Shown piece after piece: positions 1,501 to 49,802 of a stretch of DNA of 49,802 nucleotides. Location: IMG/VR virus record IMGVR_UViG_3300028802_000022, positions 1-49,802 of that record. The stretch is one strand, 5' to 3'. Origin of the DNA: a virus. The notes under the pieces are model-generated. The model did no database searches. It saw only the letters and a program-made list of their open reading frames with translations, and was not told the origin of the DNA. The translations under genes and the position numbers were made by a program. Position 1 is the stretch's first letter; each line of letters begins with the position of its first letter.

Positions 1501-1983
1501 TTAGTCTGCTGGTCCAGTCTTGTCGATGTTGGCGAACATCGTCTCGCCATCATCGGACGGGCTGTGCTTTATGTGAACAATACACTGACGACCTGGAGTC
1601 TGTTGCTCCATGTCACCAACGCTTTCATCACCTTCGGTCTCAAGACCAAGGTCCTTGAGGAACTTAACAAGACGCCAAAGGGAGTCTGGAGTGTGGTAGA
1701 AGGTCAGCCTCTGCATCTTCTCCCCAAGAGGAACGATGGTACCGTCCTTCTTAGTTAACCATTCTTGAAGAGCGTCCGCATCGACGTCGTCCAATGCTTC
1801 GAGAAGCCGCATTGCGTATTCAGAGAACGGAGTTCCCTTCTTGGTAGACTTATCATATCGAGGTAGGCCCACGACCATGGCGAGATAGCTTCCATGTGGT
1901 GCGGGCTTGGGCCTAGATATCTCAGACATCGGTGTGTCAAGGAGTGAGGCGAAGGTCTTAGGTGTGTCTTTCTCTTTAGCCAT
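1501..1983 (-). CDS. Putative ssDNA-binding accessory protein (DUF669-like)
   Basis: A 160-aa soluble protein. The central part (GSYLAMVVGLPRYD, then KKGTPFSEYAMRL) and the C-terminal PGRQCIVHIKHSPSDDGE resemble the OB-like layout of phage DUF669/SSB-type proteins, which usually sit beside Sak4-like recombinases. It lies two short genes from a RecA-fold ATPase and just before the replication polymerase locus, which fits a role in coating single strands. Start ATG with AGGA 9 nt upstream. The hairpin immediately downstream suggests the transcript is expressed strongly. The family call is by pattern and context only; it could be an unrelated conserved early protein. Confidence 0.5.
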   Translation of the reverse strand: MAKEKDTPKTFASLLDTPMSEISRPKPAPHGSYLAMVVGLPRYDKSTKKGTPFSEYAMRLLEALDDVDADALQEWLTKKDGTIVPLGEKMQRLTFYHTPDSLWRLVKFLKDLGLETEGDESVGDMEQQTPGRQCIVHIKHSPSDDGETMFANIDKTGPAD

Positions 1984-1995
1984 TGTGTGTGTATC

Positions 1996-2199
1996 CTATT
2001 TGTTTGTAGTTACCAGTTTGACGGCCCACATTGCAGCATCCTCGTAATGCGTCTGGGCCAATGCCGCAAGACGAGGGTCAAGGGACTTATGCTCTTCGCA
2101 TAGGTCTATTAGTCGGGCTGATAGTTCTTTGATTTGGTCGACTAGGTTGTCCGAGCTTGGATTGAACGACAGGCGGACTCGATCTGTCCCTAGACTCAT
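1996..2199 (-). CDS. Acb2/Tad1-hairpin-like small protein, candidate anti-CBASS cyclic nucleotide sponge
   Basis: 67 aa from ATG 2199, chosen over an upstream in-frame start at 2229 because AAAGGAG lies 7 nt before it. The sequence has the look of the Acb2-type (DUF7681) family: FNPSSDNLVDQIKELSARL, then a charged turn, DPR, and LAQTHYEDAAMWAVK, two amphipathic helices forming a hairpin. Acb2 proteins form oligomers that bind cyclic di- and trinucleotides and block CBASS immunity. The gene is overprinted on the last 113 nt of the Sak4-like gene in another frame. Family membership is judged by eye and sponge activity is inferred. Some family members may have only a structural role. Confidence 0.58.
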   Translation of the reverse strand: MSLGTDRVRLSFNPSSDNLVDQIKELSARLIDLCEEHKSLDPRLAALAQTHYEDAAMWAVKLVTTNK

Positions 2200-2992
2200 T
2201 TGGTTTCTCCTTTGCTTTGAGTACCTCAAAGAAATCTGCTAAACCACTTGAGATTGGGTACTCTTTCATCATCTCAAATGGCCTTGGGTTCTTAAGTTCT
2301 ATCTGTGGGGTTGAAGTTGTTCTGATGATCCGTTTACCTCCTGTTGTGGTTTCACATAGAGCCAGGGAATTGAAGTAAGCGCCTATCCAAGTTGATAAGG
2401 CCGAGCCTACTGACTTAGGATAGCCACGCTTGACTCCAGTTTCATCCTCGGAATAGTGGATATGAGTGAGGACAACGACGTTGGTGTGAAATGATTCAGA
2501 AGCTATGTTAGCCAGGGTCTTCTCGATTATCTTTTGGCTATCGTAATAGACTGCTCGTTGATCGTATTTCTTTCCTTCACCGACGATCAGTTGCTCTCGC
2601 CAATCGAATGCTGCCTTTGACATCATGGTAAGAGAGTCAATGACAAGAATCCATTCTGGTCCCCAATCTCCTGGTGCTCCTAGTTCGTGCCATTTATCTA
2701 AGAGTTTCATTCCATCTACGAATGCTCTGGCTGCGCCTATGATAGTTGGTCCTGCGGCGGTTGCTCTGTATTTATCTCGGAGGGTAACGTAGTGGACGTT
2801 GTGGAGTTTGTCTGGGCATTCATGCTTGATGAATTGAACTAAGGGATCGAGGCCGTTGTCGTAATCGAGGATGCCTAGGTGGTATCCGGCTTTGACCAAT
2901 GGAGTTAGGCCACCGGTTTTGCCTGAGCCAGGGTCACCTAACACCATCATCTTGGTGAAGTTATTGGACTGATGCTGATCTAGTGTTGGCAT
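2087..2992 (-). CDS. Sak4-like RecA-fold ATPase (phage nucleotide-binding protein)
   Basis: 301 aa from ATG 2992. A longer form from ATG 3073 is possible, but it would overlap the previous gene by 113 nt. Walker A GDPGSGKT lies about 20 residues in and Walker B ILVIDSLT in the middle; VVVLTHIHY before residue 200 resembles a RecA motif. Sak4-type proteins are short RecA relatives that work with an SSB in single-strand annealing recombination, and an SSB-like gene lies just downstream. The C-terminal tail (KPNESRDRSSPPVVQSKLGQ onward) is low-complexity. It is the part overprinted by the Acb2-like gene, so it is probably dispensable for the ATPase fold. Confidence 0.8.
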   Translation of the reverse strand: MPTLDQHQSNNFTKMMVLGDPGSGKTGGLTPLVKAGYHLGILDYDNGLDPLVQFIKHECPDKLHNVHYVTLRDKYRATAAGPTIIGAARAFVDGMKLLDKWHELGAPGDWGPEWILVIDSLTMMSKAAFDWREQLIVGEGKKYDQRAVYYDSQKIIEKTLANIASESFHTNVVVLTHIHYSEDETGVKRGYPKSVGSALSTWIGAYFNSLALCETTTGGKRIIRTTSTPQIELKNPRPFEMMKEYPISSGLADFFEVLKAKEKPNESRDRSSPPVVQSKLGQPSRPNQRTISPTNRPMRRA

Positions 2993-3167
2993 GTGTAAGC
3001 TCCGTGTATAGAGGAAGTGTATCGCCTGCTTTGATGTCGTGTATGAAGGGAAGGTGTATGGTTGCGTGGACATTCTTTCCTAGGTGTAAGGTAATTGCCA
3101 TTCCGGAGACATGAACTACTTCAAAGTCTCCTACGAATACTTTCAGCGGGGCTTGAGTGGGTTCCAT
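2961..3167 (-). CDS. Hypothetical small beta-rich protein
   Basis: 68 aa, predicted mostly beta (KVFVGDFEVVHVSGMAITLH). A strong AGGAGG lies 6 nt before ATG 3167. It overlaps the end of the nuclease gene by 25 nt and the start of the Sak4-like gene by 32 nt, so it is locked into the recombination cluster. No family is recognised. A role with its neighbours is only a contextual guess. Confidence 0.65.
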   Translation of the reverse strand: MEPTQAPLKVFVGDFEVVHVSGMAITLHLGKNVHATIHLPFIHDIKAGDTLPLYTELTHANTRSASVQ

Positions 3168-4096
3168 GGTTCCTCCTGGTTGAAGTCACCCTTAAGGAAA
3201 TGTTCACGAACTCCTGGGGATTTGGAGCAGATTTCCCTGAACTTACAGCCGCCATATTTATCACAGGCGGTATCGTTCATGGGCCAGTATTGGGCGGTGG
3301 CATACTCTTTGGCTTTGTCGAGCCATTGCGTTAGGTCAACAAGCCATTCGGCGATCTGATCGTCGGTTCGATAGGTAGTTCCTCGGGTGCATCGAGTGTC
3401 GTCGATCATGAGTTGGATCGAGTCAATCAATACACCCTTGATGTTTGTTTGAAAGATGATCTTGCCTGCCAAGGTATACAAGGACATCTGATTGTTAGGT
3501 TCAAACTGATTCCAGAAGTAAGAACCTGGAGTTGAGGTAGAAGACTTATAGTCTTCGGCGAAGATCTCACCCTGGAAGTCAACGACTCGATCGAGATGAC
3601 CGCAGAGCATATAGGGTTGGTCTTCGGTTGGTCCGTAGTCTAGCTCGAAGTTAAAGGATAGTTCAACTGCCGGTTTACCGTTGGCTTGCACGATAGTCTT
3701 AGCTGGGTCATGTTCGTACTGATCGAGGTAGCGGATCACGCTACGGATCAGAGTGAACCTGTTCTTGTACTTGTGATCGGTGTCCCAGTCTTCGACTCGG
3801 TAGAGTAGCTCTCGGATTACATGGAAGACTGCTTCATCGTGTTCGATGTTATCAGCTCTGACTAGGTGATACTGATGCATAGCTGTATGGAACTCTGCAC
3901 CCCAACGAAGATGAACGCTTTCATTCTTAGGTCGCCAGCCTTCTATCATTTCATATTGATAGAGTCTGGGGCAACGCTTGAATGACTCTAGAGATGTGGC
4001 ATCCCAAGCATATTGAATGAAGGTTCCTGGGATGAAGTTGCTTGGAACCAGGTCTGGTTCGTCGACGATCAATTCTGCTTGAGTTAGTTCGGTCAT
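3143..4096 (-). CDS. Cas4/RecB-like PD-(D/E)XK nuclease with an Fe-S cysteine set
   Basis: 317 aa from ATG 4096 (an upstream TTG at 4111 is less likely). The nuclease core is visible as GHLDRVVDF, then AEDYKSS: the Asp of GHLD and the D-x-K of EDYK form the usual PD-(D/E)XK centre near residues 168-184. One cysteine near the N terminus (KRCPRLYQ, about C42) plus three spaced C-terminal cysteines (CDKYGGC, then FREIC, about 278, 284 and 290) match the AddB/Cas4 pattern that holds a 4Fe-4S cluster. Such phage enzymes resect DNA ends for recombination. The gene lies between an SF1 helicase and a Sak4-like ATPase, completing a recombination set. Confidence 0.85.
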   Translation of the reverse strand: MTELTQAELIVDEPDLVPSNFIPGTFIQYAWDATSLESFKRCPRLYQYEMIEGWRPKNESVHLRWGAEFHTAMHQYHLVRADNIEHDEAVFHVIRELLYRVEDWDTDHKYKNRFTLIRSVIRYLDQYEHDPAKTIVQANGKPAVELSFNFELDYGPTEDQPYMLCGHLDRVVDFQGEIFAEDYKSSTSTPGSYFWNQFEPNNQMSLYTLAGKIIFQTNIKGVLIDSIQLMIDDTRCTRGTTYRTDDQIAEWLVDLTQWLDKAKEYATAQYWPMNDTACDKYGGCKFREICSKSPGVREHFLKGDFNQEEPWNPLKPR

Positions 4097-4135
4097 TGGA
4101 TTTTCCCACAAATTTCAGAAATCTCAGACCCATAC

Positions 4136-18077: not shown

Positions 18078-18822
18078 TCCAGAAGACGAAGCTAGACATA
18101 AGGAGACAATGGGCCCCAAGAAGCGAGCCGGTCGCTTCGACGACATAATCGAGAAGCATGCTAAGCGAGTTGGCCTCGATCCGGAGTACATGAAGCGAGT
18201 TATGAAGATTGAATCAGGCGGCGATCCACAGAACGTAACCGGCCGATACCACGGGTTGTTTCAGCTCGACGAGAAAGAGTTTAGGGCCCATGGTGGAAGT
18301 GGCTCGAGGTTTGACCCAGAGCAGAACACCATGGCTGCGGCGAATATGTTCGCCAAGCAACAATTGGCTTTCAAGGAAAAGTACGGCCGAGAGATGAAGC
18401 CAATCGACCGATACATGATTCATCAACAAGGGGCCGCTGGGTACTCGGCCCATTTGGCCGATCCAGACCAACCGGCCTGGAAGAACGTGAGGGAATATTA
18501 TGGATCTGATGAAATGGCCAAGAAAGCCATATGGGGAAACGTACCCGATAAGGATAAGACGAAGTTCGGCTCGGTCGAGAACGTCACTTCCAAGCAATTC
18601 GTCAGCGACGTCTGGGCCCCTAGGGTCGAAGGCGGTGAGCCAGAATTCGGCGGTACAGCCACGGCCGGATGGCGAAGCAAAACTCGAGAAGGCTCCAACG
18701 CAAAGCTAGACTTCCTCGAGGCCTCGGATAGGCCAAAGAAGAAATCAAGCGTAATCAACGAAGGATTTGAACCAATCAATGTTCAGATCCCAAACCTCGT
18801 ACCAAGGTTCTCTATAGGATGA
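18064..18822 (+). CDS. SLT-type lytic transglycosylase
   Basis: 252 aa. GLDPEYMKRVMKIESGGDPQ carries the catalytic Glu (E50) of soluble lytic transglycosylases, followed by GRYHGLFQLDEKEF and an AANMFAKQQL helix typical of the fold. These enzymes cut the MurNAc-GlcNAc bond with anhydro product. The C-terminal 90 residues are disordered-looking and basic. GGAG 8 nt before ATG. Encoded between two membrane proteins and TerL, it may be a second endolysin or a virion-borne wall-opening enzyme. Confidence 0.8.
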   Translation: MPTGDPEDEARHKETMGPKKRAGRFDDIIEKHAKRVGLDPEYMKRVMKIESGGDPQNVTGRYHGLFQLDEKEFRAHGGSGSRFDPEQNTMAAANMFAKQQLAFKEKYGREMKPIDRYMIHQQGAAGYSAHLADPDQPAWKNVREYYGSDEMAKKAIWGNVPDKDKTKFGSVENVTSKQFVSDVWAPRVEGGEPEFGGTATAGWRSKTREGSNAKLDFLEASDRPKKKSSVINEGFEPINVQIPNLVPRFSIG

Positions 18823-20345
18823 ATACACAGCTCCTAGAATGGCTAGGCGGAGTTTCGAAGGATCCCTTAGCCTTCGTGATGGGAGCATTCCCTTGGGGCG
18901 AGAAGGATACTCGATTAGAGCAATTCCCAAATGGACCCGAGCCATGGCAGAAGGAAATCCTAGGCCTGATCAAAGCAGGTCTTCTGAATATCAACCAAGC
19001 TATCCAATTAGCGGTGGCTTCAGGCCACGGGATCGGGAAGACTGCTCTGGTTTCCTGGATCATCCTGTGGGCCATATCCACGAAGCCGGATTCTCGTGGA
19101 GTTGTCACCGCTAACACCGAAACGCAATTGAAGACCAAGACCTGGGCCGAACTGGGCAAATGGTTTCATATGTTTATCGCCAAGGATTTCTTCTCGCTTA
19201 CGGCCACGGCCCTGTTCGCTAAGGATTCCGCCCATGAGCGAACCTGGCGTATTGACATGGTCCCATGGTCTGAGAGGAACACCGAAGCATTCGCTGGGTT
19301 GCATAATAAGGAAAGACGGATTCTTGTGGTATTTGATGAAGCATCAGCAATTCCTGACATTATCTGGGAGACTACCGAAGGTGCTCTTACCGATGCTAAC
19401 ACAGAAATTATTTGGTGTGTATTCGGAAACCCAACCAGAAATACGGGCCGATTCCGTGAATGCTTTCCTGGCCAGCGGCATGCCAGAGCCTGGAAGACTA
19501 AGCAAGTCGATTCCCGTGAGGTATCCCTCACCAATAAAGACCAAATCCAAAGCTGGATCGACGCCTATGGCGAAGACTCGGACTTCGTTCGGATTCGTGT
19601 CCGTGGCGTATTCCCCCGGACAGGCGAGATGGAGTTCATATCCGCGGAAGACGTTTCCGAGGCGGCGTCGAGGGATTCCGACAGCCATCCGCATGATCCG
19701 CTAGTGATAGGAGTCGACGTTGCACGGTATGGAGCAAATGAGACTGTTATCTTCTTCCGCAAGGGAAGAGATGCAAGATCGATCCCGCCGGTCAGACTCC
19801 GAGGAGCTTCGGTCGTCCAAGTCGCCACCAAGGTTTCGGAGGTTTGTTCAACTTATCATATTGATGCTGTGTTCGTTGACGGTGGTGGGGTTGGCGGTGG
19901 AGTTGTTGATAATTTACGGGCTTTACACGTTCATTGCTTCGATATCCAGTTCGGAGGAAAAGCCGAGGCTATGGGATTCGCCTGGGGTACCGAAGGCGAG
20001 CGCTACGCCAACAAGCGAGCGGAGATTTGGGGATCGATGAGATCTTGGATAAAGTCCGGAGCTATTCCGTACGAATCAGACCTTATGGCCCAATTAATTG
20101 GCCCGACGTATACTTACAATCTCAAGAATGAAATCCTCTTAGAGAAGAAAGAGGAAATGATGAAACGTGGACTGGATTCCCCTGACTTGGCCGATGCCCT
20201 TGCGTTGACCTTCTCTATGCCAGTGCAGAAGCATGCTCACGCTGGCTCTGACGGTCCGCAGAAGCCTTTGGTCGAAAGCGAATATAATCCATTCGCATCA
20301 AGAAGTATCTATGGCGAAATGCCTGACGATAGGAGGGTAGCCTAA
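18819..20345 (+). CDS. Terminase large subunit
   Basis: 508 aa, ATGA coupled to the previous gene. Walker A ASGHGIGKTA (K74), Walker B RRILVVFDEAS (D173, E174). The RNase H-like nuclease has GVDVARYGANET, DAVFVDGGGVGGGVVDNLR and PDLADALALTF supplying the acidic residues. It packages DNA through the portal and cuts it. Full length for the family. Confidence 0.93.
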   Translation: MNTQLLEWLGGVSKDPLAFVMGAFPWGEKDTRLEQFPNGPEPWQKEILGLIKAGLLNINQAIQLAVASGHGIGKTALVSWIILWAISTKPDSRGVVTANTETQLKTKTWAELGKWFHMFIAKDFFSLTATALFAKDSAHERTWRIDMVPWSERNTEAFAGLHNKERRILVVFDEASAIPDIIWETTEGALTDANTEIIWCVFGNPTRNTGRFRECFPGQRHARAWKTKQVDSREVSLTNKDQIQSWIDAYGEDSDFVRIRVRGVFPRTGEMEFISAEDVSEAASRDSDSHPHDPLVIGVDVARYGANETVIFFRKGRDARSIPPVRLRGASVVQVATKVSEVCSTYHIDAVFVDGGGVGGGVVDNLRALHVHCFDIQFGGKAEAMGFAWGTEGERYANKRAEIWGSMRSWIKSGAIPYESDLMAQLIGPTYTYNLKNEILLEKKEEMMKRGLDSPDLADALALTFSMPVQKHAHAGSDGPQKPLVESEYNPFASRSIYGEMPDDRRVA

Positions 20346-20641
20346 TGGGCTTTGTCCAGCGAATGTTTACCCCACCTGGAACTGGGGGTAGGGAAGCAGC
20401 AATGCAGCAGGCCCAGACAGATCTGAAGAATGCTACCACCCAGCTTCAGGAAACTAAGCCACCGCCAGCAGCACCGACTATGGCATCAATGGGCACAGCG
20501 CCAAATGCCCCTGGTGTGTTTGTTCCGGGCCAAGCACCTGGAGCTAAGAAAGCTGGAGGCATGGCAACTGCGCCAACCTCGATGCTTGGCGCTGCCGCTG
20601 CGGCCGGATCGCAAGCCAAGAAAAGCCTATTGGGTCAGTGA
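20345..20641 (+). CDS. Ala/Pro-rich hypothetical virion-region protein
   Basis: 98 aa, TAATG overlap with TerL. Short helix, then Pro/Ala/Gly-rich low-complexity sequence (PPAAPTMASMGTAPNAPGVF). Of the type often encoded between terminase and portal in podoviruses. Function unknown. Confidence 0.6.
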   Translation: MGFVQRMFTPPGTGGREAAMQQAQTDLKNATTQLQETKPPPAAPTMASMGTAPNAPGVFVPGQAPGAKKAGGMATAPTSMLGAAAAAGSQAKKSLLGQ

Positions 20642-21072
20642 TGGCTAGACGAGAAGATTACCAATTCGACTACCCAGAGAAGTCTTGGTCCGAAGGCAAG
20701 ATGCGTAAGAAAGGCGATCAGTACGCTAAAATGGATCGACTTCAACGGACTCTTCCAGGCGAGGGAGGTCAATTGGCCGAAATGGATCGAGCCGCAGGCA
20801 TGGGCATAGCTGCTCGAGGCGGACCGACTGGAACTCTTCAGGTGCCAGGTACCATCCCTATAGCTAAGATCACTGGTAACGTCACTAACGATATTATAGC
20901 TAACCACAAGGACCAACTTCAGCAGGGTATGAATCAACTGGCCGAAGGATCCATGACTCCAGATGCGCTCAAACGAATGATGAAGCAATTCGGTTGGGGC
21001 GGTGATCCTGACAAAGGTAAGTTTCTCGATCCTAATGGACAGCCACATATAATCGAGGCGGAGGCAAAATAA
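20641..21072 (+). CDS. Hypothetical protein
   Basis: 143 aa, ATG 20641 overlapping the previous TGA. Charged N terminus, a Gly-rich middle (GMGIAARGGPTGTLQVPGTI) and a helical end. Probably a minor head-assembly protein by position only. Confidence 0.58.
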   Translation: MARREDYQFDYPEKSWSEGKMRKKGDQYAKMDRLQRTLPGEGGQLAEMDRAAGMGIAARGGPTGTLQVPGTIPIAKITGNVTNDIIANHKDQLQQGMNQLAEGSMTPDALKRMMKQFGWGGDPDKGKFLDPNGQPHIIEAEAK

Positions 21073-21299
21073 TGCCAACAGTTCCTCTTTCGTCAGGCAC
21101 TAGAGCACAGCTCGGGGCTCAAGAAGACCAAAAGCCTACTCCTGAGCGACTCTTAATGACCGCAGCCGACATGCATGCTCGGGGACAACTAACCGAGCAT
21201 CCATCTAACTTTGGTAATCCTGGGGCCGATCTGAGGCTCCCATTCGCAGGCGGTGGACGTGGCACAAGACCTACAGGGCCGAAAGGTAAGCGACGCTGA
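21072..21299 (+). CDS. Small basic hypothetical protein
   Basis: 75 aa, TAATG start. Helical middle (PERLLMTAADMHARGQLTEH), Gly-rich basic end (GPKGKRR). Its last 47 nt overlap the start of the portal gene in another frame. Confidence 0.55.
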   Translation: MPTVPLSSGTRAQLGAQEDQKPTPERLLMTAADMHARGQLTEHPSNFGNPGADLRLPFAGGGRGTRPTGPKGKRR

Positions 21300-23010
21300 C
21301 GTCGAGCTCCATCGGCACGTCAACGAACGCTTACTAGGCCTTAGAGTCAATCGTTATTCGTGGTGGGTCCACGCAAGGGAACTCGCTGACTTCCTGCTGC
21401 CCAGAAGGTACAAATGGTTAATCACCCCTAACCAGATGACCCGAGGGTCGCCAATAAACCAACATATCCTCGATTCGACTGGCACCATCGCGGCGAGGAA
21501 CTTAGCATCGGGGATGATGAGTGGAATCTCATCGCCAACACGTCCCTGGTTCCGGCTTAAGATAGGCCGGATTGATTCCACTCAAACATCCCCGATCTCT
21601 TTGTGGCTCGCCGAATGCGAACGGCTGATGATGTTAGTCTTTCAGGAAAGTAATTTCTACAACTCCATTGCAGTGATCTATTTCGATTTGGTTATCTTCG
21701 GCACGGCCGTAATGCTGATCTACGAAGACTTCGACAACGTCATCCATTGCTACAATCCTTGCTTCGGCGAATACTACGTCGATAGCGACGGCAAGTTCCA
21801 GCCAGTGATATTCTTCCGTGAATTTACCATGACGATCGCTCAAGTCGTCGATCAATTCGGCCGAGAGAACTGTTCAACGAACGTCCAGAGGCTTTACGAC
21901 GAAGGCAAAGCTGGCCTAACTCGAGAGATCATTGTCGCTCATGCGATTGAGCCTAATACCGACAATCGAAAGTTCGGCATCCCAGCGAGGTTCAAGTATC
22001 GAGAAGTCTACTGGGAATGGGGCGGATCGGCCTCGCCACAAGGAGGGATTAGTGGAACTCCAGGGTTTCTTCGCAAGCGAGGATTCCACGAAGCTCCACA
22101 CATCGCTGTTAGATGGGACCTTGTTAGTAACGATGCATACGGCCGAAGCCCTGGTATGGACGCTTTGCCGGATATCAAACAGCTTCAACAGGAAGTTCGA
22201 AGAAAAGCTCAAGCAATTGATAAGTCAGTCAATCCTCCAATGGTAGCAGACATCCAACTCAAGAACCAGCCCGCGAGTCTCTTACCTGGAGGAACCACTT
22301 ACATCGCAGGAATGATGCAAACTGGCAACGCTGGCTTCGCCCCGGTCTATGGAAATTGGCGTCCAGGCATCGCCGAAATCTCTGAAGACCTTAACGAGAT
22401 TCGGGCCAGGATCAAGACCATCTTCTTTAACGATCTATTCCAAGTAATCTCTCAATTCCAGACTCGCTCGAACGTTTCTGCTACGGAGATCGACGCTCGG
22501 CGCAGCGAAGCCATGGTCATGATTGGCCCAGTTCTAGAAAGGATCCAATATGAACTACTCGACCCAATCATCGACAGAACCTTCTCAGTTATGTCTAGAG
22601 CTGGGGTCTTGCCACCACCCCCGGAGGAAATCGCAGGACAGAATATTGACATTGAGTATGTTTCTATGCTCCTTACCGCCCAACTCGCCTCAGCAACCAG
22701 CGGTATTGAAAGAACTCTCCAACTCGTTGGGGGCTTGGTCGGAGTCGATCCCGGAGTTATGGACAACATCGACGTAGACTTCGCAGTCCAGAAATACTCG
22801 AATCTAATGAACAACGACCCGAAACTGATCCGAAGCCCAGAGGCCCTTAAGCAAATGCGGGATCAGCGGGCTCAGCAGGCTGCTCAACAGCAACAAGCAG
22901 CGCAAGCCGAGCAAGCTTCGAAGATGGCCCAAGGGGCGAAGACCCTAAGCGAAACAGACGTCGGTGGCGGTCAGAATGCCATGGCTGCTATGGTCGGAGG
23001 CGGGCCATGA
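21253..23010 (+). CDS. Portal (head-to-tail connector) protein
   Basis: 585 aa, GTG start with AGG-like SD. NRYSWWVHARELADFLLPRR, then STGTIAARNLASGMMSGISS and PTRPWFRL are the conserved N-terminal features of T7-type head-tail connectors (Head-tail_con family). SPGMDALPDIKQLQQEVRRK is the clip/stem region and the C terminus is Gln/Ala-rich. It forms the dodecameric vertex used in packaging and ejection. Confidence 0.92.
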   Translation: MDVAQDLQGRKVSDADVELHRHVNERLLGLRVNRYSWWVHARELADFLLPRRYKWLITPNQMTRGSPINQHILDSTGTIAARNLASGMMSGISSPTRPWFRLKIGRIDSTQTSPISLWLAECERLMMLVFQESNFYNSIAVIYFDLVIFGTAVMLIYEDFDNVIHCYNPCFGEYYVDSDGKFQPVIFFREFTMTIAQVVDQFGRENCSTNVQRLYDEGKAGLTREIIVAHAIEPNTDNRKFGIPARFKYREVYWEWGGSASPQGGISGTPGFLRKRGFHEAPHIAVRWDLVSNDAYGRSPGMDALPDIKQLQQEVRRKAQAIDKSVNPPMVADIQLKNQPASLLPGGTTYIAGMMQTGNAGFAPVYGNWRPGIAEISEDLNEIRARIKTIFFNDLFQVISQFQTRSNVSATEIDARRSEAMVMIGPVLERIQYELLDPIIDRTFSVMSRAGVLPPPPEEIAGQNIDIEYVSMLLTAQLASATSGIERTLQLVGGLVGVDPGVMDNIDVDFAVQKYSNLMNNDPKLIRSPEALKQMRDQRAQQAAQQQQAAQAEQASKMAQGAKTLSETDVGGGQNAMAAMVGGGP

Positions 23011-23231
23011 TAAGACAGCCAGAAATAGTCTCAGTTAGATTGACTGAACTCGAGCTTCTATTCCTTGATGCTATTTGTACAAAGAACAATCTCAACCGAC
23101 ACGAATATGTCCGGTCGATTGTGATAGATGCTCTGATAGAGGATGGTTACGATGCCTTACGATGCAGGGAATCGGAAGGACGTGAAGGAAGCAGAGAAAA
23201 CCGCAAAACTTGCGGAGCAACAACGTCGTGA
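23007..23231 (+). CDS. Ribbon-helix-helix protein
   Basis: 74 aa, ATGA coupled to the portal gene. VSVRLTELELLFLDAICTKN followed by NRHEYVRSIVIDALIEDGY is a clear strand-helix-helix RHH fold. The C-terminal 25 residues are overprinted by the next gene. A DNA-binding regulator inside the head cluster is unusual. Confidence 0.65.
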   Translation: MIRQPEIVSVRLTELELLFLDAICTKNNLNRHEYVRSIVIDALIEDGYDALRCRESEGREGSRENRKTCGATTS

Positions 23232-23589
23232 GATCGTCACAGGAATTATGTCAGTTGCCCCCGGCCGATCGTGGATGTGCGACATCCTCGAGTCTTGTCA
23301 TATCTTCGCGACTTCCTATAACGACATCGGCTTTCGGATGGCGTTCATGGAAGGTCAGCGAGAAGTGGGAATCAGGCTCCTCACGGATATCATGGGAGCC
23401 TGTCCAGATCAATATGTTCTAATGATGAGGGAACGAAATGAGCGAAACGCAGCCCACGACGCCAGAAGGAGTCGCAAGGACACCGACGGGCGAGATAGCC
23501 AATCAGGGTCAGACGACGTCATCTGGCACGACTCCCCAGACGTCGACGACGCCGACGGAGACGCCGAGCATAGCGAACCAGCCCGGTGA
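23152..23589 (+). CDS. Bbp19-like structural protein
   Basis: 145 aa from ATG 23152 (MPYDAGNRKDVKEAEK; GAGG 10 nt upstream). GRSWMCDILESCHIFATSYN and MAFMEGQREVGIRLLTDIM match the Bbp19 family of podovirus head proteins. The C-terminal 50 residues are an Arg/Asp-rich tail overprinted by the scaffold gene for 152 nt, so the tail is probably not part of the ancestral fold. Confidence 0.75.
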   Translation: MPYDAGNRKDVKEAEKTAKLAEQQRREIVTGIMSVAPGRSWMCDILESCHIFATSYNDIGFRMAFMEGQREVGIRLLTDIMGACPDQYVLMMRERNERNAAHDARRSRKDTDGRDSQSGSDDVIWHDSPDVDDADGDAEHSEPAR

Positions 23590-24121
23590 GTCCGTCGCGA
23601 ATCAGAAACCGACGACCGAAGGTGGAGCACCAGAAGCCTATGCTACCTGGAACGTTCCTGAAGGTTTTCAACTGGACGAAAGCGTTTCTAAAGAGATTGG
23701 TGGACTCTTCAAAGGGATGAACCTTTCCCAAGAGCAAGGCCAGAAGCTTGTTGACTTCTATACAGCCAAGACTGCCGAGTCGGCCAATCAGCCTTATCAG
23801 GTCTGGCAGGAGACTCAGGAAGCTTGGGTTAAGGAGGTCAAAGCCGATCGAGAGATTGGGCCTCGGCTAAACGAAGTCAAGACTACCATCTCTAAAGCCA
23901 TCGACGGGTTGAACGACCCGAAGCTTGCCAGAGACTTCCGAGAAGCTATGGATTACACAGGCGCTGGGAACAATCCCGCCTTTATCAAAGCTTTCTGGAA
24001 GCTGGCTCAGATGGTAACAGAAGGTGGTCATGTTGCCGGTAGTGGTCCATCGGCAGCAAGCCAGAAGAGAGCTGGGGAAGTGCCCAGTGCTGCCAGAGCT
24101 ATGTACCCTAACCTACCATAA
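23438..24121 (+). CDS. Head scaffolding protein
   Basis: 227 aa; GAGGGA SD in the previous gene. N-terminal 65 residues are Thr/Pro/Gln-rich and disordered, then an EGFQLDESVSKEIGGLFKGM and LSQEQGQKLVDFYTAKTAES segment and a helical C terminus typical of capsid scaffolds. Directly before the major capsid gene, as expected. Confidence 0.78.
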   Translation: MSETQPTTPEGVARTPTGEIANQGQTTSSGTTPQTSTTPTETPSIANQPGESVANQKPTTEGGAPEAYATWNVPEGFQLDESVSKEIGGLFKGMNLSQEQGQKLVDFYTAKTAESANQPYQVWQETQEAWVKEVKADREIGPRLNEVKTTISKAIDGLNDPKLARDFREAMDYTGAGNNPAFIKAFWKLAQMVTEGGHVAGSGPSAASQKRAGEVPSAARAMYPNLP

Positions 24122-24199
24122 GCCCAGCCACAGACCGTGGATGAATCGAGATGGGTGATTGGCCACAAAGGAGTTAAACCGACTGTTTAGGAGGCCATC

Positions 24200-25243
24200 A
24201 TGGCCACAATTGGGGCAACTGCCCTAACCTACGCTGACTGGGCTAAGCGAATGGACGACGGTTATCACGTAGCCGTTATCATCGAGCTACTCAGTCAAAC
24301 TAACGAGATTCTCGATGATATGCTCGTGGTCGAAGGCAACCTACCCACCGGACACAAGACAACGGTCCGAACTGGTCTGCCTCAAGCAACGTGGCGTCTA
24401 CTCAATACAGGCGTCCCGAACGCTAAGTCGACTACAGCTCAGATTGTTGATACATGCGGAAACCTCGAAACCTATTCCGTTATCGACAAAGATGTGGCTG
24501 ATCTCAATGGCAATACTGCTGACTTTAGACTTTCTGAGGTCAAAGCCTTCCTTGAGGGGATGAGTCAGCAGGTCGCCGCTACCCTGATCTATGGGAATCA
24601 GTTCATCAATCCAGAACGGTTTTCTGGCCTTGCCCCTAGGTATTCTACGAAGAATGCCGCTCTATCCCAGACCGCAGCCAACGTACTTGACGGTGGCGGT
24701 CTAGCATCCACGAATACAAGTCTTTGGATTGTGGTCTGGGGCCCTGATACCTACCATGCAACATTCCCCAAGGGCAAGGTAACTGGCCTTCAACATAGGG
24801 ACATGGGCGAGTGGCCCGTGCAAGATGGTGGTGGAAACACCTATCAAGCCTATCGAGATCACTTCAAATGGGAAATCGGACTCGTTGCCCGAGACTGGCG
24901 TTACGCAGTCAGGATCGCCAACATTGACATCACCCAGCTTTCTGGTGTCAATGCAGCCAATCTCATTAACCTGCTCGTGCGCGGCTTGTACCGTCTCCCG
25001 ACAGCTCCAGCAGGTGCTACAACGATCCAAACTTCGGACACCCCTGAGGTTAGGGCAAATATGGGTCGAACCGTTATCTACTGCAACCGTGTCATCCGGA
25101 CGTACCTCGACCTCCAAGCGATGAACAAAACCAACGTACTTCTCCGGATTGAGGAGTTCGATGGCAAGCCCGTCACTACCTTCAGGAGCATTCCTGTTAG
25201 GACCTGTGATGCGATCCTCAACAATGAAGCACAGGTGGTGTAA
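24200..25243 (+). CDS. Major capsid protein
   Basis: 347 aa; TAGGAGG 7 nt before ATG, the strongest SD in the head cluster. TALTYADWAKRMDDGY, LPTGHKTTVRTGLPQATWRL and NPERFSGLAPRY are typical of podovirus capsid proteins of the BPP-1-like type with an HK97 fold. Neighbouring scaffold and cement genes support this. Confidence 0.9.
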   Translation: MATIGATALTYADWAKRMDDGYHVAVIIELLSQTNEILDDMLVVEGNLPTGHKTTVRTGLPQATWRLLNTGVPNAKSTTAQIVDTCGNLETYSVIDKDVADLNGNTADFRLSEVKAFLEGMSQQVAATLIYGNQFINPERFSGLAPRYSTKNAALSQTAANVLDGGGLASTNTSLWIVVWGPDTYHATFPKGKVTGLQHRDMGEWPVQDGGGNTYQAYRDHFKWEIGLVARDWRYAVRIANIDITQLSGVNAANLINLLVRGLYRLPTAPAGATTIQTSDTPEVRANMGRTVIYCNRVIRTYLDLQAMNKTNVLLRIEEFDGKPVTTFRSIPVRTCDAILNNEAQVV

Positions 25244-47175: not shown

Positions 47176-48425
47176 GGTGCAGTGAACTGTCGCATCCCTT
47201 GGCGATTGATGTGGTTACAGATAATCATTCTTGAACCTATTAATGTATCAAGCATCGGCCTAACTGACATCGACGAAGTACGTTCTCTCATGAAGTTGAT
47301 TATTAGATGCTCATCAACTGGGCCTTTGTGATTACGAACGAAGTGAACGACTTCGTCCATTACTCTAGAGTCTGGTGCTATTGATCCAGTTTGGAATATC
47401 AAAGGCATTTGTTTCTCTGACTGAAGCAACCAGCCCATTGCCCTGTTGAAGTCTTCAACCTCAAGGATAAGGTCGTTGGTTCGATCTACAGAAGCGATCA
47501 TAGTTAGCTTAAGTAGATGCGCCCACCTGCGGGTATTGTAGTGGGTCAGCTTCGGATGGTCTGGAATAGGTGGTTGGCCTAGGAGCTTCCAGTTATGCAT
47601 AGCCTTGGCGAAGTCTGGGGTGAAACGGAACTCCCCTATCAAAGTGCTGATGATCTTGATATCGTGGATTAGGTTAACTGGCTTGGGCATAGGCGGAGTG
47701 TTGAATACATCTATCACTGGGCGCTCTGAAGCGTAGACCATGAGGACCCTAGACATGAGTCCTTGTTCCCAGACGTAGTCCTTTAGAGTATGGATAAGGT
47801 TTGAAGGGGTGGAACCAGAGAGGATGTTAAGTTGTGGCCTGGGGATTTTAATTCTGATGTTAGATACTCTTCGGCCTTCGGAGTAAGGATTGACATCATA
47901 GAATTCTACAAGCGAAGCTACTAAGGCTGAGTCATACTCAGACATAAATGCAGAGAACTCATCAGCTACGGCTACGAGGGAATTGTATTCAATTGGCGGA
48001 TGAGGAATGTTTGCAATGAATCGTTTGGCCTCGTTCATGTAATCGCTTAGGGCTGCTTTGGTCATTGAGGTAGCGCCCCAGTAGGTTTCGGGCAGAGCTT
48101 CACGGACTATGTTAGAGGCAGACATGATAGCTCGAGACTTCCCCAAGCCTGGGTTGCCTACGAGGAAGGTGTAGATATTCGGATAGATAATCGATCCGGT
48201 ATTAGCCCATACCTTTTGTTCCAAGGTAGCCGCAACCATTGTGATCGCAGACCATCGTCGCCAGATCTCAGGCGACTCGAGATTAGCTGTATGCTCTACG
48301 AAGCTTTCGATCCAAGAATGGCATCGGCGGCGTCCTGCGGCGTTTGTCGCCGGGGCTATATCCTTTGAGTCCGTCTGGATTTGCTTCACCGAAATCGCCC
48401 CAGTTCCAACCGGTTTTACAGCCAT
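47172..48425 (-). CDS. DUF3987-like replicative helicase/primase-type ATPase
   Basis: 417 aa from ATG 48425. An in-frame GTG at 48389 with GGGGCG upstream would give 405 aa. SWIESFVEHTANLESPEIWR, RWSAITMVAATLEQKVW, then Walker A LVGNPGLGKSR and Walker B-like SLVAVADEFSAF are typical of DUF3987 phage ATPases placed next to polymerases, probably the replicative helicase. The N-terminal codons overprint the last 143 nt of the polymerase gene. Its stop overlaps the convergent late operon stop. Confidence 0.8.
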   Translation of the reverse strand: MAVKPVGTGAISVKQIQTDSKDIAPATNAAGRRRCHSWIESFVEHTANLESPEIWRRWSAITMVAATLEQKVWANTGSIIYPNIYTFLVGNPGLGKSRAIMSASNIVREALPETYWGATSMTKAALSDYMNEAKRFIANIPHPPIEYNSLVAVADEFSAFMSEYDSALVASLVEFYDVNPYSEGRRVSNIRIKIPRPQLNILSGSTPSNLIHTLKDYVWEQGLMSRVLMVYASERPVIDVFNTPPMPKPVNLIHDIKIISTLIGEFRFTPDFAKAMHNWKLLGQPPIPDHPKLTHYNTRRWAHLLKLTMIASVDRTNDLILEVEDFNRAMGWLLQSEKQMPLIFQTGSIAPDSRVMDEVVHFVRNHKGPVDEHLIINFMRERTSSMSVRPMLDTLIGSRMIICNHINRQGMRQFTAP

Positions 48426-49788
48426 AAGGAATCTCTAACATTCTGTTGTGTTTAAGGGGGATGGCGTGTCGAAGTTGGTTCAGGATTTTTGGAACGATCT
48501 CATCTTCTTTCTTTTCTGGATACTGTACTAGGATCGAGTCGTGATTTTGCATTAGGAGTTGGCAGTCATTGGCACGAAAGACGTTGAGCATTCCTTGGTT
48601 GACGATGTCTGATAGAGAACCTTGTGGATCGAAGTCTAGGGCTTGGCGAACCACATCATCGGAGTCTCGGCGCCCAAAGAAGTAGCGCTCACGACCGGTG
48701 AGGGAGACTAGTCGGCCGTGTGCTCTGATCTGTTCCTCGATGTAGGTGTGCCATATTCGATGAGCAGGGAAGGCTTTGAAGTATTTCTGTTGGAAGTCTA
48801 TGATGATCGCAATGTCAGTCTTAGTTTGAGTGGAGAGTGTCTGAGGTCTGCCTCCATAATTAGAGCCATGCCCAATGATCTTGCACATGTGGCGCCTAGA
48901 GTGATGTCGATAATATGGTTGTTCGGCGAGTTCTCTATCTCCTTCCAGGTCCCCAGGCCAAGGAAGATTGGGCCAACATATTCTGGCGACAGCCGTGTGT
49001 AGGTCTCCTGACTCACAGGCATCAAGATAATCGCCTCGTTTGAAGAGGTTCCATTCGATTGCTCCGATGACACGAGACTCTCCTTGTTCTGCATCAAAGT
49101 TCCCGAGCTTCATTCCATCATCGGCGATGAACATCGAGCGAAGCCCTTCCTCGATATTCTGTAGGTTGCCTCCGGTTCCGAACTCAGAAAAGGACGAAGA
49201 GAACCTACCGGTGGTGGTACCAGCGATGTTGTAGGAAGTTCTCATTCGACCGTCGGAGTCGATGGCGGTCTTGATTACTTCGAGGCGTTTCTTTAGATCA
49301 CGCATGTAGGTCATGTATTCGATTATGGTTCTGGCTATCGAGTAGGACTCCATACTTTCTAGAGCATCTCGATTGACTGAAGGTGCTCCAGTTTTAGTTC
49401 TATGTCTTCCGACCGGGATACGAAAGATATCATAGAAGAGACGACATAAGTCGGCGGAGCTTCGCCAGTTGAAACCAACAAAGCCACAACCCTCGCGGAC
49501 TATCCGTTCTAGGCGAGCCTCGGCTTCGTCGAGCTTGGCAAAGTATTCTTCTCTGACTTCGGCCCGACGCCATTCGTCGATCTTCACTCCACGTATTCGC
49601 ATCTCTAGGACAGGGCCTTGCAAGGCTCGGGAGAAGGCGTAGGTTCTAGAAGTGTAGTCGTTGAGTTGAGGAAGGATAGCCTCAAGGACTTCGTAGGTTA
49701 CGCAACAATCTAAACCATTGTATACCCAGTCTTTTTCTATACCTTTAAGTTGAGCTGGGGTTATCTTGTCTGTCTGGATGATTTTCAT
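48283..49788 (-). CDS. Family A DNA polymerase carrying only Exo III of the proofreading domain
   Basis: 501 aa. An Exo III motif WVYNGLDCCVTYEV (Y23, D27) opens the chain, while Exo I and II are in the separate UDG-exo gene. Polymerase motifs: A GNFDAEQGESR (D232), B RHMCKIIGHGSNYGG (R299, K303, Y311; the Pol I Phe762 position is H307), C MQNHDSILVQ (H416, D417). Start ATG shares ATGA with the HNH stop and has AGGA 6 nt upstream. The C-terminal 35 residues beyond WNWGDFGE are basic and overprinted on the helicase start. Replicative polymerase; proofreading would require assembly with the first polypeptide. Confidence 0.92.
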   Translation of the reverse strand: MKIIQTDKITPAQLKGIEKDWVYNGLDCCVTYEVLEAILPQLNDYTSRTYAFSRALQGPVLEMRIRGVKIDEWRRAEVREEYFAKLDEAEARLERIVREGCGFVGFNWRSSADLCRLFYDIFRIPVGRHRTKTGAPSVNRDALESMESYSIARTIIEYMTYMRDLKKRLEVIKTAIDSDGRMRTSYNIAGTTTGRFSSSFSEFGTGGNLQNIEEGLRSMFIADDGMKLGNFDAEQGESRVIGAIEWNLFKRGDYLDACESGDLHTAVARICWPNLPWPGDLEGDRELAEQPYYRHHSRRHMCKIIGHGSNYGGRPQTLSTQTKTDIAIIIDFQQKYFKAFPAHRIWHTYIEEQIRAHGRLVSLTGRERYFFGRRDSDDVVRQALDFDPQGSLSDIVNQGMLNVFRANDCQLLMQNHDSILVQYPEKKEDEIVPKILNQLRHAIPLKHNRMLEIPYGCKTGWNWGDFGEANPDGLKGYSPGDKRRRTPPMPFLDRKLRRAYS

Positions 49789-49802
49789 TCAAGGTCCTGT
49801 CG
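49676..49802. repeat. Terminal redundancy, right copy
   Basis: Identical to 1-127. Joining the two ends makes the HNH, UDG-exo and polymerase genes contiguous in one leftward operon. Confidence 0.95.

Follow-up and report, generated by a model that had tools for sequence, protein, structure and literature searches.

The hairpin gene and its surroundings

The window, the whole analyzed stretch of 49,802 nucleotides of viral DNA, carries a gene for an Acb2-type hairpin protein at 1996-2199 on the minus strand. Translation runs from an ATG at 2199 to a stop codon at 1998-1996 and yields a product of 67 residues (MSLGTDRVRLSFNPSSDNLVDQIKELSARLIDLCEEHKSLDPRLAALAQTHYEDAAMWAVKLVTTNK). An earlier sequence-only reading had placed a 67-residue product here without naming a strand. 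The plus strand over 1996-2199 is interrupted by stops, and the hairpin frame is confirmed on the minus strand. The strong ribosome-binding site of that reading is the motif AAAGGAG at 2207-2213 (minus strand), 7 nt upstream of the ATG. The reported overlap of 113 nt with a neighboring recombinase gene is exact: the 5′ half of the hairpin gene, and only this half, shares positions 2087-2199 (minus strand) with the 3′ end of the Sak4-like gene, in the +1 frame relative to it.

The overlapping partner is a Sak4-like recombinase/AAA ATPase gene (2087-3073, minus strand). Its identification as Sak4-like holds: the product matches phrog_124 with an E-value of 6.7e-9, the label of PHROG 124 being 'Sak4-like ssDNA annealing protein', and AAA_24 scores slightly below the cut-off. 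The frame is open from an ATG at 3073, and the ATG at 2992, where the alignment of most relatives begins, is the likely start. On the other side of the hairpin gene lies an SSB-like gene (1501-1983, minus strand) with a weak match to phrog_378 (phage SSB, E 0.05). It adjoins sak4 in relatives too and is a conserved neighbor, forming the second border of the cargo slot described below. Upstream in the same gene run, 3143-4111 (minus strand) encodes a PD-(D/E)XK exonuclease (PF12705, 68.9 bits).

Positions 1-127 of the window are repeated exactly at 49676-49802. Given this 127-nt terminal direct repeat, the contig probably represents a whole genome. The DNA polymerase gene is seemingly split on the minus strand, with a UDG and exonuclease half at 443-1453 and a polymerase half at 48283-49788; an HNH-like ORF (110-442) lies between the halves, across the contig ends. 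The region 18819-25243 suggests a proteobacterial host: its capsid protein shares 51-54% identity with the capsid proteins of phiV10/Salmonella 66FD-type phages, and its terminase shares 49% with that of a Pseudomonas phage. At the DNA level, the first 25 kb of the window resemble no record of the phage collection.

The hairpin frame is under selection

Relatives of the hairpin protein occur in 60 viral contigs, at 40-79% identity. Compared with its relatives, the window gene differs at 33-52 third codon positions per relative, against 15-21 first and 10-16 second positions. Synonymous changes in the hairpin frame are present both within the sak4 overlap and beyond it. The codon pattern indicates that the frame is under purifying selection, outside the overlap as well. 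Together with the family score given below and the spread of relatives, the third-position differences argue that this is not a chance ORF.

We also considered that the overprinted newcomer could be the Sak4 tail, i.e. its last 37 residues, rather than the hairpin. The tail is indeed a poorly conserved frame, but its basic tip (RRA, RRTA, RRSL) is also found in relatives that have no hairpin gene. At the C-terminus of Sak4 (window 2087-2098), this tip, in the variants RRA, RRTA, KRTA, RRSL and FARR, is kept even under a different overlapping hairpin gene. Its persistence under varied hairpin genes hints at selection acting on both frames.

The protein belongs to the Acb2/Tad1 hairpin family

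Profile comparisons clearly place the window protein in the Acb2/Tad1 hairpin family, in line with the sequence-only reading. It scores 48.7 bits against PF24729 (cut-off 27), and all 45 of the aligned relatives match the same profile (E ≤ 0.01). In addition, 39 of the 45 match phrog_717, in which Jenson et al. placed the homologues of T4 Vs.4 (PMC10097602). When the whole PDB is searched with a profile of the 45 relatives, T4 Vs.4 (Acb2) ranks first (E 0.007), followed by Tad1 entries (E about 0.4); the C-terminal end that had been read as typical of the family does carry its motif. Sequence identity to Vs.4 is too low for pairwise BLAST, which gives no match, and phmmer of the window protein against the PDB returns chance coiled coils only. 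NCBIfam has no match to the protein and PADLOC gives a chance match only. The subfamily of the window hairpin has its own conserved N-terminal motif, G-x-x-R-V-R-x-x-F-N-P-S. Among bacterial genomes, a scan with the single window protein finds none, and the subfamily profile finds nine, in Hyphomicrobiaceae, Bradyrhizobium, Chitinophagaceae, Dyadobacter and others.

In Acb2, a short N-terminal helix is accompanied by two long helices that run antiparallel (PMC10419184). The AF2 model of the window protein (pLDDT 94.7) has helices at residues 3-7, 18-36 and 42-64, predicting the same arrangement of a short helix and a long helical hairpin. The two-helix layout noted from the sequence is thus reproduced in the prediction. 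The model contains no β-strand, and the 67 residues lack the N-terminal β-sheet domain of the Tad1 type. Of the earlier designation 'Acb2/Tad1', the Acb2 part therefore stands in size and layout, while the protein is not a Tad1. Among predicted viral structures, the two proteins that match the model best both bear the name Acb2/Tad1 hairpin (TM 0.88). Foldseek finds nothing significant for the model in the PDB, which is not surprising for a hairpin of 67 residues. Among solved structures, Acb2 (8h2j) is found at Z 4.6 and rank 30, under many unrelated helical proteins, so that structural comparison would not by itself establish the identity.

Residues of the interface and the pocket

Residue equivalences to Vs.4 were taken from a HMMER alignment of the relatives' profile with the PDB sequence, and conservation was assessed over the 45 relatives. 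Vs.4 residues A66, T68, A73, A77 and R79 correspond to A48, T50, A55, A59 and K61 of the window protein, each of which is either invariant or conserved to at least 90%. In Vs.4, A66, A73 and A77 belong to the interface, and mutants at these positions lose both the hexamer and the binding of cGAMP (PMC10097602); T68M reduces binding (PMC12657230). Of the corresponding hexamer-interface alanines, A48 is invariant and A55 and A59 are at least 90% conserved.

Of the ligand residues of Vs.4, several are kept and two are lost. The cGAMP contacts H11 and F82 of Vs.4 are not retained (S15 and T64 in the window protein); PaMx35 Acb2 likewise has no C-terminal aromatic at the F82 position. The replacements of the stacking tyrosine Y8 by F12 and of R79 by K61 are conservative. 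F12 adjoins the first residue aligned by the Pfam profile and occupies the position of the stacking tyrosine (Y8 in Vs.4, Y9 in the homologue from locus L137). Matched by eye, K24 probably takes the place of Vs.4 K23; the spacing from the aromatic to this candidate lysine is 12 residues, compared with 15 in Vs.4. A hexamer with a ligand pocket is plausible from these residues, which do not allow the ligand to be predicted.

The sak4-ssb interval is a cargo slot

We define the slot as the DNA that separates sak4 from the SSB-like gene. Its content was compared first among related loci and afterwards across a broader scan with a Sak4 profile. The count covers 60 non-redundant Sak4 loci, excluding the window and loci L044-L057, which had been fetched through the hairpin. 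An Acb2-type hairpin occupies the slot in 10 of these, 28 slots are empty (gap of at most 80 nt), and the content of the remaining 22 is of another kind or unresolved. The slot accounts for 5% of the bases around the 60 loci and contains 10 of the 11 hairpin genes there (binomial P about 1e-12). Hairpins were detected with profiles of the window's type (A1) and of a second type (A2) and with a two-sequence PaMx seed, so other types may be missed.

Three hairpin subfamilies occupy the slot. The window's type is present in the window itself, L178, L044-L046, L050, L052 and L057. The second type, with the motif YLKPT...AMWANVAITR, is found in L067, L147, L152, L188-L192, L196 and L200; its PF24729 scores include 35.4 bits (L067) and 20.3 bits, under the cut-off (L196). 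The third, in L137, resembles PaMx Acb2, with a PF24729 score of 47.4 bits and 50% identity to PaMx35 Acb2 over 24 residues. Compared with solved structures, a model of the second type has Vs.4 as its top-ranked match (Z 7.0), tied with an unrelated chain. The A2 profile finds no Acb2 among PDB sequences, and a profile-profile comparison of A1 with A2 is not significant (probability 5%). The two types are linked only via PF24729 and the models, which argues for a shared family, not for close kinship.

Other cargo of the slot includes HNH endonuclease genes (L118:2526-2996, L166:3880-4323), a possible route for cargo entry and exit, and a gene for an N4 gp49/Sf6 gene 66-like protein (L197). Small slot ORFs of about 58-68 residues (L044:761-967, L045:3216-3419, L050:3240-3422, L170:4167-4343, L183:1231-1431, L185:3863-4060) carry acidic, SSB-like tips (EDEIPF, EDKIPF, NEEIPF, NDDIPF, DDDIPY, DKAPF). 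Such tips match 6 of 4199 ORFs, and all 6 are located in the sak4-ssb slot. The window's own SSB-like protein has no such tip. To judge from these motifs, the acidic-tip ORFs may mimic or supply an SSB tail.

Hairpins are exchanged between related phages

The nearest Sak4 relative of the window, L067, has a Sak4 that is about 81-90% identical, and the flanking DNA aligns well. The hairpin genes of the two phages begin at the same start-codon position and both overlap the sak4 tail, yet they cannot be aligned with each other. L067 has AAAGGA at the position of the window's ribosome-binding site. L065 and L066 carry the same genes and no hairpin, and the slot of L119 is empty as well. A second swap is seen elsewhere in the Sak4 tree, between L178 (window type) and L196/L200 (second type). 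Over the tree, the hairpin has changed between presence and absence at least 11 times. The tree of the 67-residue hairpins themselves has few columns and many unresolved forks, and the exact place of the window in it carries no conclusion.

Most relatives of the window hairpin have no Sak4 nearby. Their neighbors elsewhere include terminase, portal, head-tail adaptor and exonuclease genes, and in Flavobacterium phages the hairpin of this subfamily lies near an SSB or ERF gene. The window-subfamily hairpin thus behaves as independent cargo. In the open-access papers searched, we found no account of recurrent exchange of Acb2-type subfamilies at one overlap site. The protein is a newcomer to a known family; its location in the slot and its exchange there are the new part.

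A putative sponge for cyclic oligonucleotides

We consider it probable (about 0.76) that the hairpin gene encodes an Acb2-type cyclic-oligonucleotide sponge. Most likely, this soil phage uses the protein to soak up the bacterial cyclic-nucleotide alarm molecules that trigger anti-phage suicide. Since the hairpin start lies inside the sak4 tail, the protein would presumably be translated from the mRNA of the replication and recombination operon, using its own ribosome-binding site. Its second helix, lined with alanines, most likely serves as the interface of a hexamer. The hexamer would hold cyclic di- and/or trinucleotides produced by CBASS or related systems, and with the signal sequestered, the suicide effector of the host would stay off. 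The counter-defense role proposed by the sequence-only reading gains support from the swapping of this hairpin with other Acb2-type hairpins in the slot, including the PaMx-Acb2-like one: that such hairpins take its place at this site argues for an equivalent function. The pattern of presence and absence argues against a core role in replication. Both fit an exchangeable accessory counter-defense gene, not a replication gene.

A related but rather doubtful reading keeps the family and fold and changes the ligand: the protein would bind a signal other than cGAMP or cA3, i.e. another cyclic nucleotide or an NAD-derived molecule, and counter a defense other than classical CBASS. The pocket differs from that of Vs.4 at S15 and T64 and in the shorter aromatic-to-lysine spacing, the subfamily has its own N-terminal motif, and swapping of subtypes in one slot would be sensible if each suited another signal. 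However, Acb2 itself is broad, binding several CDNs and CTNs, and the example of PaMx35 Acb2 implies that a different pocket does not have to come with a different ligand. For gcADPR, moreover, the β-sheet part of the Tad1 pocket is missing in the window protein. In a wider form of the same idea, the slot would be a dedicated swap site that matches sponge subfamilies to the signals of the hosts (and to traps such as Panoptes), with the window's subfamily sequestering a signal beyond those of known Acb2; we hold this as a tentative proposal, no more probable than the changed ligand.

The position of the gene, between the recombinase gene and the SSB-like gene and overlapping the former, could point to a small auxiliary protein working with the recombination machinery, a partner of Sak4 or SSB and no defense antagonist, and the Flavobacterium phage relatives near an SSB gene or ERF are in keeping with this. 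A true partner would be expected to track Sak4, whereas most relatives have no Sak4 nearby and lie beside terminase, portal or head-tail adaptor genes, and close Sak4 relatives have either no hairpin (L065, L119 and other empty slots) or one of another type (L067). Such a role is therefore improbable. Even less credible is a degenerate, non-functional protein retained merely through the sak4 overlap: some pocket residues do differ from Vs.4, but the purifying selection on the hairpin frame extends beyond the overlap, of the two frames it is that of the Sak4 tail that is poorly conserved, and the ribosome-binding site is good.

Among related phages, the slot is a natural exchange site, filled by one of three hairpin subfamilies or by another small gene, or left empty. 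If the hairpins are indeed sponges, the matched pairs (window and L067; L178 and L196/L200) offer a way to ask which ligand each sponge type binds and why the types are swapped. The other small cargo genes of the slot become candidate counter-defense proteins.

Comparison with known systems

Tad1, the anti-Thoeris sponge (7uav, 8kbf), is similar in its hairpin with the T-H-x-E-x-A-x-M-W motif. It differs in having an N-terminal β-sheet domain, which is missing in the window protein; in Tad1 this domain helps to build the gcADPR pocket. Hypothetical proteins of the Flavobacterium phages FCV-1 and elemo and of Providencia phage PS3 belong to the same subfamily as the window protein, with about 40-54% identity to the query or the subfamily consensus, and the PS3 protein ranks second among the structural matches to the window model. 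These phages are unrelated to the window phage, and no sak4 overlap is seen in them.

T4 Acb2/Vs.4 (PDB 7uq2) is also a small, single-domain helical hairpin. The interface alanines, T68, the basic position of R79 and an aromatic residue at the Y8 position are kept, while the window protein is 21 residues shorter, has no equivalent of H11 or F82 and differs in the aromatic-to-lysine spacing (12 versus 15). The Acb2 of PaMx-type Pseudomonas phages (PDB 8h2j/8h2x) is of a different subfamily, with 93 residues and a longer inter-helix loop. It shares the Pfam hairpin family and the helix order with the window protein, and its homologue in L137 fills the same slot in a relative of the window phage.
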